From assembly GCA_035079385.1 (NCBI GenBank), contig JAVHKY010000025.1, positions 17,086,501-17,150,500 on the forward strand: a stretch of 64,000 bases of DNA. The letters run 5' to 3'. The translations under genes were made by a program, and so were the position numbers. Shown piece by piece: positions 11,737-24,359 of this stretch. The number at the start of each line of letters is the position of its first letter. The stretch's first letter is position 1. This stretch comes from Aspidiotus rigidus. Lineage: Eukaryota > Arthropoda > Insecta > Hemiptera > Diaspididae. The notes beneath the pieces are model-generated. The model made no database searches, was not told where the DNA came from, and worked only from the letters and a program-made list of their open reading frames with translations.

Positions 11737-12312
11737 TTAATCAAAGTTATTTTGTAGCCTCCATAACTGAACTGCTTCTTTAATTGCATTATTCGGTCGC
11801 AGATCCCTTTCACGGAGGGTCAGGGTGGTCGTTGGTTCTTTTCCAAAACGCTGTAAAGAAAACGTCATTGGCTTTATATACATTCTTAATTGTGCCTGAT
11901 TCTTAAAATCTAAACCTGAATGATCATCCATATTTCAAGCTATTCTATGTACAATTACAGTTATCAAACGATAATGAAATGAGGGTCAATATCTTCTTTA
12001 ATTTTTGCTTCCTTTTCCACAAACTTTCATGATAGTTACTCGTATGCACAAACAACAAGCTGAGATTGTGTTATTTAAAAATTGAGTAGGTGAGGGGTGA
12101 AATTCTTGTGCAGAAACCGGACATGAGAGAAAGTTTGAAATGCGAAGAGGTTTCATGATCACATTCGAAGAAGCTGAATTGAAAAAAATTACTTGTATGA
12201 CATCCAAAATAACTTCTCGATTGTAAGTAATACCCCTTGGTGAGGTAACTGGATCATCCATTGGTAGATAAGAAACCGGATCCTCGACATATTTGGGTAT
12301 TTCGATAGATTC
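11737..12312 (-). CDS. U-box exons of the TPR/U-box gene
   Basis: Exons are 12312-12193 (120 nt) and 11850-11737 (114 nt including TAA). They read ESIEIPKYVEDPVSYLPMDD, then DPVTSPRGITYNREVILDV, then RFGKEP...LRPNNAIKEAVQLW. The SPxGITYxR and PNxAxKE blocks are U-box hallmarks, and the length fits CHIP to within a few residues at the C-terminus. The intron falls within the domain. The residue matching CHIP His260 is Val and that matching Pro269 is still Pro. U-boxes recruit E2 enzymes. Whether this one does is uncertain. Confidence 0.85.
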
Positions 12313-24300: not shown

Positions 24301-24359
24301 ATTTGCCAAACCAACCACGCGACGACGATGTATTTGCACTTGTACTTTCTCTAGATGAT
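11737..24359 (-). CDS. CHIP/STUB1-like U-box protein with ten tandem three-TPR domains
   Basis: The CDS was assembled from splice sites and phase. Exons, 5' to 3': 24359-24292 (tentative), 23782-23682, 22602-22416, 21286-21180, 21096-20910, 20553-20450, 20364-20172, 19802-19699, 19620-19434, 19325-19222, 18218-18035, 17749-17646, 17574-17388, 17302-17199, 17116-16930, 16859-16756, 16684-16501, 16080-15977, 14167-13981, 13905-13805, 13724-13538, 13406-13330, 13101-12973, 12312-12193, 11850-11737. All introns are GT-AG and every junction keeps frame, giving about 1115 residues without the missing N-terminus. The order is ten copies of a roughly 97-residue TPR domain, a Lys/Glu-rich coiled coil, then a U-box. 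CHIP has this order with one TPR domain. It binds Hsp70/Hsp90 tails and ubiquitinates clients. Here the clamp residues are lost (see findings), so ligand and activity are uncertain. The 5' end lies beyond 24.4 kb and was not found. Confidence 0.85.
12660..12802. repeat. (GA)71 microsatellite
   Basis: An uninterrupted GA dinucleotide run of about 143 bp lies in the intron between the coiled-coil and U-box exons. The Arg-Glu and Ser-Leu open frames across it are artefacts. It is a purine/pyrimidine tract likely to be length-polymorphic. Confidence 0.98.
12973..13406 (-). CDS. Coiled-coil exons of the TPR/U-box gene
   Basis: Exon 13406-13330 (77 nt) encodes DDIAKLEDARKKIEERIKKI and exon 13101-12973 (129 nt) encodes LYLERLIIEEKKEKIKRVTK then IDRIKNLQSEIEEIEST. 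Both are Lys/Glu-rich with heptad-like hydrophobics, as in the helical dimerisation region between TPR and U-box of CHIP. For the first exon the inner acceptor (atgcaggcag) was chosen because the outer acceptor at 13426 would break the frame. Confidence 0.75.
13538..13905 (-). CDS. TPR module 10 (exons 13905-13805 and 13724-13538)
   Basis: The A exon is 101 nt (VELAELGDKFFSFDKYDEAL). The B exon is 187 nt (FAMRGFCHWRMGNLEKAISD, then LRVNPTNARYLISLSEVL). The B donor is gttgag, less canonical than in the other modules. It leads in phase 1 to the coiled-coil exon. Confidence 0.85.
13981..16080 (-). CDS. TPR module 9 (exons 16080-15977 and 14167-13981)
   Basis: The A exon is 104 nt (MELLLMGNDFFLEEKFAFAI). 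The B exon is 187 nt (NFRRQRALCYWKKGDVETAL, then LSEILFEIQRYDELIAG). The 1.8-kb intron between them is the longest in the array and is filled mainly by a TIR element with a second one nested in it. Confidence 0.87.
14632..15386. mobile_element. hAT-like TIR element in a TPR-gene intron
   Basis: The left end is CAAGGGTATTGGAGGC and the right end, reversed, is CAAGGGTGTTGGAAGC. Flanking 8-mers TCAAAAAT (14624-14631) and TCAAAAAA (15387-15394) match at 7 of 8 positions, fitting a hAT target duplication. The interior repeats 'gaggcgcctccaa' and an internal copy of the end (ttggaggctggaa at about 14939). No transposase remains. Confidence 0.7.
14704..14859. mobile_element. Nested MITE, 156 bp
   Basis: The ends are CAGGGGTGCCGTGAGCCC and its inverse GGGCTCACGGCACCCCTG, a perfect 18-bp TIR. 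The flanks CAAGG (14699-14703) and CAAGG (14860-14864) match. It is inserted inside the larger TIR element, so it is younger. Confidence 0.85.
16501..16859 (-). CDS. TPR module 8 (exons 16859-16756 and 16684-16501)
   Basis: The A exon is 104 nt (KELGTLGDQFFEVRRMGNAL). The B exon is 184 nt (TYFRRRGNCYLKMENINFAL, then ALQADPTDQESAASLKEALY), with acceptor gtatctag. The last codon of B is split as C, so the junction codon with module 9 becomes CAA (Gln) rather than GAA. Confidence 0.87.
16930..17302 (-). CDS. TPR module 7 (exons 17302-17199 and 17116-16930)
   Basis: The A exon is 104 nt (DLETLGMRFLDNMYYKKALR). The B exon is 187 nt (NFYIHRANCYKDMKQPIMAI, then AVLLDPSDAERRLYFSHALL). Introns on both sides are 70-85 bp. 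Donors are gtaagtag and gtaagaga. Confidence 0.88.
17388..17749 (-). CDS. TPR module 6 (exons 17749-17646 and 17574-17388)
   Basis: The A exon is 104 nt (DELEKLGNQLHQKSKFLEAL). The B exon is 187 nt (HYRNRGNCYKKMKNLPSAIS, then VAVQIDPTDRRSRKCLFDAL). This is the only module with Asn at the CHIP Asn65 position, and it also has Asn at the Asn34 position, but the Lys30 position is Glu. The intron is 71 bp. Confidence 0.88.
18035..19325 (-). CDS. TPR module 5 (exons 19325-19222 and 18218-18035)
   Basis: The A exon is 104 nt (ELDILGMEFFERQRYKTALD). The B exon is 184 nt, one codon short (KYYRQRGHCYTFMELYHKAT, then ALLNLGDFMTVSDG). The 1.0-kb intron between them contains an AT-rich tract at about 18770-19110. 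Confidence 0.85.
18770..19110. other. AT-rich tract inside the module 5 intron
   Basis: Strongly A/T-rich intron sequence with no CG and no coding frame. Its composition resembles the tract at 61.3-63 kb. The origin is not determined. Confidence 0.5.
19434..19802 (-). CDS. TPR module 4 (exons 19802-19699 and 19620-19434)
   Basis: The A exon is 104 nt (ELETLGLEFFRKSWYHQALC). The B exon is 187 nt (KYYKRREKCYREMENWDMVI, then LIELDPENKEHKIALGEAF). The A-exon donor is gtgatt, weaker than in the other modules. The intron between A and B is only 78 bp. Confidence 0.85.
20172..20553 (-). CDS. TPR module 3 (exons 20553-20450 and 20364-20172)
   Basis: The A exon is 104 nt (QLEKFGDKFMSRRKYAEALL). The B exon is 193 nt, two codons longer than usual, with HYFRLRGNCYWKMLNYEAAL and an insertion around YTGPSNEPN in the linker of the third helix pair. 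The donor follows FSPAAE (gtagat). Confidence 0.85.
20910..21286 (-). CDS. TPR module 2 (exons 21286-21180 and 21096-20910)
   Basis: The A exon is 107 nt (one extra codon) with IAELGQELMYKRLYNEAIHC. The B exon is 187 nt with YYRRRGECYMALKLCDKAI. Donors are gtgagtatc and gtgagcgta. A 1.13-kb intron separates it from module 1. Clamp positions: Lys30 is Ala, Asn65 is Arg. Confidence 0.85.
21290..22260. other. Intron of the TPR/U-box gene, no further feature
   Basis: Intronic sequence between modules 1 and 2. No repeats or exons are recognised. Confidence 0.5.
22416..23782 (-). CDS. TPR module 1 (exons 23782-23682 and 22602-22416)
   Basis: The A exon is 101 nt and the B exon is 187 nt. The A exon carries GDLYKNGLQLEKDGLYDEAI, the first TPR hairpin. 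The B exon carries YYRQRAGCHLKLNHWKEAI, the second TPR, and then a third helix pair ending DYMDAADG. The position of the CHIP clamp Lys30 is Tyr and that of Asn65 is Gln. The 1.08-kb intron between the two exons hosts a palindromic MITE and a short hairpin. Confidence 0.85.
23002..23234. mobile_element. Palindromic foldback MITE in TPR-gene intron
   Basis: The left arm reads 'gacaaaaatcgcatatattt' then 'gccac'. The right arm reverse-complements to 'gacaaaaaacgcatatattt' then 'gccac'. Together they give a near-perfect arm of about 50 bp. The centre is unique. No ORF is supported. The 108-codon frame across it is an artefact of the palindrome. Confidence 0.7.
23511..23565. repeat. Short hairpin with CCATAAGAAATACATT loop
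   Basis: The 17-bp arms are TGGTAGAAGGACGTCCG and CGGACGTCCTTTTGCCA (two G-T-compatible differences). They enclose a 21-nt loop containing CCATAAGAAATACATT. The same loop occurs in an unrelated stem at 63544-63620. Confidence 0.8.
24292..24359 (-). CDS. Possible upstream exon of the TPR/U-box gene
   Basis: The 68-nt segment has an acceptor (tttttttccag) and a donor (gtaagtatt). In the frame that ends in phase 1 it encodes a Ser/Thr-rich piece (SSRESTSANTSSSRGW) and joins the next exon correctly. It could be an N-terminal linker. It is supported only by splice signals and phase, so a non-coding or spurious exon remains possible. Confidence 0.35.

Follow-up and report, generated by a model that had tools for sequence, protein, structure and literature searches.

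Architecture of the window gene

The window (the whole 64,000-nucleotide stretch of Aspidiotus rigidus DNA analyzed here) contains a 25-exon gene on the minus strand, running from 23782 to 11737, in which ten pairs of TPR exons (A and B) are followed by three exons for the helical linker, a U-box divided over two exons and a stop codon, all joined in one open frame of 1,155 full codons. By its intron sites and protein alignments, this gene is a descendant of STUB1/CHIP. A CHIP-type U-box ligase is a known kind of protein; the architecture with ten TPR domains and the family of array genes sharing this organization appear to be new. The reading that we favor, and regard as moderately probable, is that of a STUB1/CHIP-derived insect family in which tandem arrays of the TPR exon pair act as self-contained ubiquitin ligases with non-chaperone ligands. 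The exons of the window gene, all read in the in-phase joined frame (those of the U-box also by Pfam), are as follows.

23682..23782, minus strand: A1, first TPR-module exon
22416..22602, minus strand: B1
21180..21286, minus strand: A2
20910..21096, minus strand: B2
20450..20553, minus strand: A3
20172..20364, minus strand: B3
19699..19802, minus strand: A4
19434..19620, minus strand: B4
19222..19325, minus strand: A5
18035..18218, minus strand: B5
17646..17749, minus strand: A6
17388..17574, minus strand: B6
17199..17302, minus strand: A7
16930..17116, minus strand: B7
16756..16859, minus strand: A8
16501..16684, minus strand: B8
15977..16080, minus strand: A9
13981..14167, minus strand: B9
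13805..13905, minus strand: A10
13538..13724, minus strand: B10 (module 10 clusters with the last modules of six other arrays)
13330..13442, minus strand: C1, helical linker, counterpart of STUB1 exon 3
12973..13101, minus strand: C2, helical linker, counterpart of STUB1 exon 4
12392..12478, minus strand: C3, helical linker, counterpart of STUB1 exon 5
12193..12312, minus strand: U1, first half of the U-box
11737..11850, minus strand: U2, second half of the U-box and stop codon

The joined frame has no internal stops and closes with a TAA at 11737. Acceptors are AG in 25 of 25 cases and donors GT in 24 of 24, and phases agree at all 24 junctions (A exons start in phase 1, A/B junctions are in phase 0, B exons end in phase 1, linker and U-box junctions are in phase 0). 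A exons span 101–107 nt (104 nt in seven of the ten) and B exons 184–193 nt (187 nt in seven of the ten). Pairwise identity among the ten modules is only 23–43% (mean 31%), and the array is therefore not an assembly duplication. Since the third hairpin of every module spans a B/A exon junction, the total of about 30 hairpins is extrapolated by homology from the three of CHIP and does not come from a structure.

An earlier note on this DNA had described ten A/B TPR pairs, coiled-coil exons and a C-terminal U-box, and the in-phase 25-exon frame bears this description out. Both domain types that it had named are matched by Pfam in the joined protein: TPR_2 at E 3.4e-73, and the U-box at E 1.4e-11 in the whole protein or 1.4e-13 in the last 77 residues, where PF04564 scores 51.2 bits, above its cut-off of 21.4. 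Exon profiles, trained partly on exons of the window gene (those for linker exons C2 and C3 on these alone), gave 25 matches in the 64 kb window, every one within the array and on the minus strand, and none in 20 block-shuffled copies of the window (two-base blocks permuted, not an exact dinucleotide shuffle).

Descent from STUB1

CHIP is a co-chaperone ligase with one TPR domain. The earlier note had proposed looking in related genomes for a single-domain STUB1 beside the array gene, and an ordinary single-module STUB1 (L001, contig C54, 287 aa) is indeed present in the genome searched (441 Mb, 102 contigs). Among the matches listed, its closest relatives are the CHIP proteins of two scale insects, Planococcus citri (84% identity) and Parthenolecanium corni (83%), with the remaining 118 proteins listed at 76% or less; this one protein points to a scale insect of a different species as the probable host. 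The TPR domain of this STUB1 is encoded by two exons, the first ending in phase 0 after SKAI and the second in phase 1, followed by three linker exons (the donor of exon 4 was picked by phase and is uncertain) and a U-box cut by a phase-0 intron after HLQ. The window gene has its introns at these same sites and in these phases (A/B in phase 0, B end in phase 1, U-box split in phase 0 after the Q of HLQ/VIQ), which identifies it as STUB1 with the TPR exon pair repeated. Furthermore, a PDB search places residues 881–1152 of the window protein, which comprise the last module, the linker and the U-box, in a single alignment with CHIP 6–275 (9o7h, E 2.3e-20; 2c2l, E 7e-20). This colinear match and the STUB1 intron sites support the proposal, already made in the earlier note, of a CHIP-type gene that carries many copies of the TPR domain and a single U-box. 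The CHIP linker family PF18391 is matched by STUB1 at E 2.2e-27 and by the array on contig C29 at E 1.4e-4, below the curated cut-off; it does not appear in the Pfam list for the window protein (E 1e-3, at most 25 families).

The proposed mechanism starts with the exon pair for the three-TPR domain of CHIP. Tandem duplication of this pair, as a unit entered and left in phase 1, would have produced about 30 helical hairpins (counted by homology) on a single linker and a single U-box. Because A exons start and B exons end in phase 1, the pair could be duplicated with the frame intact; because the start codon of STUB1 sits in its A exon, the array A exons must have gained an acceptor.

A family of array genes

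Genome-wide U-box searches gave 24 and 26 matches, from which about 20 CHIP-type loci were counted (three from the match alone), and architecture was read at 15 of them. CHIP-type loci outside this architecture count lie on C54 (10.93 Mb), C20 (5.22 and 10.04 Mb), C30 (2.03 Mb) and C3, and U-box matches on C2 (8.54 Mb), C6, C13 (1.88 Mb) and C53 were set aside as belonging to another family or unread. Six of the 15 loci have a single module (STUB1, C30a, C30b, C54a, C54c and C31), and nine are arrays of two to ten modules, with the order of modules followed by the U-box common to all nine:

Window array: 10 modules
C23g2 array: 10 modules
C29 array: 7 modules, 19 exons, open frame
C2 (contig) array: 7 modules, complete
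C25b array (L012): at least 7 modules
C20 array, 4.35 Mb: at least 7 modules, the first known from its B exon only
C23g1 array: at least 5 modules
C13a array: at least 5 modules, the first known from its B exon only
C13b array (L030, C13:905001-915000): 2 modules

Linker exons were picked up by profile in four arrays only (window, C25b, C29 and C13b). The two-module C13b array is a possible intermediate or shrunken array. In C25b, the closest paralog of the window gene, the profile match to the module-4 B exon stops after ~33 residues and no frame continues it; this copy may be damaged or altered in module 4. Together with the 16 kb between the last A and B exons of C23g1, this speaks against uniformly intact copies across the family.

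The tree of modules suggested by the earlier note was built from 54 modules (51 array modules plus STUB1, C30a and C54a; the C13a and C13b modules, the first module of the C2 array, all half modules, the nearly identical C30b and the human row are absent from it). Resolution is poor: of its 51 inner branches, 27 are open and 6 are starred, the starred ones carrying the groupings given here. One sets all 51 array modules apart from STUB1, C30a and C54a as a single group (99/96), and another unites the final modules of the seven arrays included in one clade (99/90). This clustering of last modules implies that the array arose before the gene copies multiplied. The ancestral gene probably already had distinct first, middle and last modules, with whole genes copied later and modules gained or lost. 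Three window modules have a supported partner in C25b: module 3 pairs with its module 1 (98/88), 4 with 2 (99/93) and 10 with 7 (100/93). First A exons are alike by eye in the window, C29, C23g2, C13b and C2 arrays, of which only the window–C29 pairing is supported in the tree (97/88), with the first module of C23g2 outside that pair.

Over 458 aligned codons (four paired modules and the U-box), comparison of the window gene with C25b gave pN 0.36 and pS 0.81. Synonymous sites are saturated module by module, and a dN/dS ratio was obtained for the U-box pair alone (~0.30, at dS 2.2); with synonymous change saturated, the claim of purifying selection rests on pN < pS. By this measure, the protein sequence is conserved over a long time under purifying selection.

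Loss of the chaperone clamp

The carboxylate clamp of CHIP for C-terminal peptides consists of K30, N34, N65 and K95, as given in part of PMC11393453 (N34 is printed as N35 in its legend and is N34 by count on the human sequence), and K30A abolishes Hsp binding according to an excerpt of PMC6916485. Scored on a MAFFT alignment, on which the counts depend, STUB1 of this genome keeps all four residues. The window modules have K30 in 0/10, N34 in 2/10, N65 in 1/10 and K95 in 0/10, the best module holding two of the four. Across the 51 array modules, the full clamp occurs in none (zero residues in 33, one in 15, two in 3), and with Arg accepted for Lys the best case is three residues, in one module. 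This complete lack of full clamps speaks against binding of Hsp70/Hsp90 and in favor of new ligands, and CHIP-type chaperone binding by the array modules appears unlikely. An Arg or Lys two columns past the lost K95, where STUB1 has His, is found in 35 of the 51 array modules, including 7 of the window's 10, and might mark a new binding pocket. In the mechanism proposed here, the TPRs would stack as a long solenoid binding one or more non-chaperone ligands, and the products of the array genes may be a new type of adaptor that has many binding sites and ubiquitinates other proteins.

Among the single-module loci, contig C30 carries two near-identical CHIP paralogs at 4.43 and 4.54 Mb (L023–L026), ~106 kb apart, with dS 0.044 and dN 0.007 over 191 codons; they keep N34, N65 and K95 and have Asn at K30.

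Ligase or scaffold

To complete the proposed mechanism, the linker would dimerize and the U-box would recruit an E2, making the protein a ubiquitin ligase with its own substrate receptor, whose specificity would have diversified among paralogs. The main competing explanation, which we consider rather unlikely, is a TPR scaffold in which the window U-box folds without catalysis and the protein serves as an adaptor or as the partner of family members that remain active. The PRP19 U-box has Tyr at the position equivalent to H260 of CHIP; a U-box can thus do without this His, which speaks against reading the loss of this residue as loss of catalysis. P269 and the P-x-G-I-T core are likewise kept in all 11 aligned U-box rows, the window included, and the window/C25b U-box pair shows the low dN/dS ratio given above. 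The scaffold explanation draws on the substitutions themselves: relative to CHIP, the window U-box has H260 replaced by V, D268 by E and R272 by T, and position 260 varies among paralogs (Y in C20, S in C23g1, Y in the C2 array, C in C25b), with H kept in C29. It is also in line with the low profile score of the window U-box (51 bits vs. 102 for STUB1) and with altered cores in copies outside the 11-row alignment (PGGHT in C13b, PDGIS in C13a, PKGDT in C54c). H260Q abolishes the ligase activity of CHIP, as stated in an excerpt of PMC6916485, and the H260-to-V and R272-to-T changes weaken the case for E2 recruitment and ubiquitin transfer by the window U-box. Ligase activity of this U-box is plausible, and the self-contained ligase is the reading that we retain.

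The 5′ end and gene integrity

To complete the window gene, A1 must be preceded by an exon with a phase-1 end; scans of the sequence ahead of A1 in the window, C29, C23g2 and C13b yielded no common candidate for a start-codon exon. The earlier note had placed the outer edge of the gene at exon 24359-24292; this part of its claim fails, as the exon has splice-like ends but its strong donor gives the wrong phase for A1, while a weaker donor four bases further, which would suit that phase, was not adopted in the model. The most plausible start-exon candidate in the window (~25012-24979, MRNVSLKVKVK, donor gtacgt) has no paralog support, and a signal-peptide-like reading seen by eye upstream of C29 A1 is ruled out by phase.

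It is improbable that the array genes encode secreted plant-feeding effectors with a U-box acting inside plant cells. Such a role would fit a large, divergent family in a probable sap feeder, and repeat-protein effectors of plant-associated organisms are a known and reviewed subject; however, an in-phase signal-peptide exon was not found in these scans, and C13b has an in-frame ATG within its first TPR exon and lacks a hydrophobic leader.

A still weaker case can be made for two or more genes, or for a TPR gene beside a separate U-box gene. Four introns of the window gene exceed 1 kb (1,003 to 1,809), and the last A and B exons of C23g1 lie 16 kb apart; but all window junctions are in phase, three of the four long introns fall within a module (the fourth separates modules 1 and 2), modules precede the U-box at nine loci, and the U-box-adjacent module belongs to one clade in the seven tree arrays, all of which makes a split very improbable. 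A decaying pseudogene, as might be suspected from the start exon absent from the model and from the one degenerate B exon of the nearest paralog C25b, is just as hard to reconcile with 1,155 open codons in 25 exons, intact splice dinucleotides and pN well under pS.

Comparison with known systems

The window gene shares with CHIP/STUB1 the TPR domain, helical linker and C-terminal U-box, intron sites and phases, and colinearity from the last module to the end; it differs in having ten TPR domains instead of one, no full clamp in any module and a replaced H260. Long TPR solenoids such as OGT and designed CTPR proteins likewise have many hairpins, and PDB sequence matches to both were obtained, but they lack the U-box and the CHIP linker. 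The plant PUB-ARM ligases, also an expanded family, combine a U-box and a solenoid of helical repeats in one chain. They belong to a plant lineage, and their solenoid consists of ARM repeats and is not CHIP-derived, so that they are at most a convergent parallel to the window family. It is a tentative possibility that the array genes are the scale-insect counterpart of PUB-ARM ligases, i.e., a chaperone-free U-box family with TPR solenoids of up to about 30 hairpins, diversified receptors and many targets; if so, possible targets may lie in symbiont control, immunity and paternal genome elimination. The nearest parallel in the literature considered is bacterial. In Parachlamydiaceae, according to the part of PMC4209131 considered here, NEX2 combines an F-box with multiple TPRs and NEX1b a RING/U-box with LRRs. 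These are also expanded families coupling repeats to ubiquitination domains; in contrast to the window family, they are bacterial, pair the U-box with LRRs and TPRs with an F-box, and, as described in that part, have neither the CHIP linker nor exon modules.

A protein search with window residues 580–1155, which scored only the 7,993 candidates sharing most words, returned 161 matches; among the best 120 of 161 listed, bacterial TPR proteins make up most of those that name a taxon, beside one archaeal entry and one eukaryotic transcript entry. For C29 residues 696–859, none of 815 candidates in the protein database reached E ≤0.01. Six other modelled arrays would score 1.5e-17 to 9.5e-5 against this segment, and close C29 orthologs are therefore probably absent from the database; the word filter may miss diverged C29 relatives, as the window gene shares one five-letter word with the segment. 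Diverged relatives perhaps exist in other scale insects, named only as TPR proteins. Neither these protein searches, limited as they were, nor a limited search of open-licence literature showed a CHIP with repeated TPR domains, and the terms "ubiquitin," "U-box" and "tetratricopeptide" have 0 occurrences in the main text of scale-insect genome papers PMC12510726 and PMC12611250.

The loci of this genome form a natural series of one module (STUB1), two (C13b), seven (C29 and C2 arrays) and ten (window and C23g2), with the clamp lost; its building block is an exon pair whose outer phases match. With this series, two questions become open to direct test: how a ligase dedicated to chaperones is redirected, and what length of TPR solenoid can work with a single U-box.

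Other features in the window

Several further features were recorded in the window. Two of the three minus-strand open frames at 31795-34215 (31798-32208 and 32760-33251) have no Pfam match at E 1e-3.

12660-12805 (approximate): long (CT)n/(GA)n microsatellite in the intron separating linker exons C2 and C3
6322-7188, plus strand: mariner-type transposase frame of 289 codons (PF01359, E 1.8e-24)
29323-29598, plus strand: open frame with an IQ motif (PF00612, E 7.5e-6), part of a neighbouring gene
27562-27963 and 28532-28783: coiled-coil-like frames close to the IQ-motif frame
31795-34215, minus strand: three open frames
49876-50100 and 50329-50559, minus strand: two almost identical frames at a distance of 453 bases, which represent a local tandem duplication
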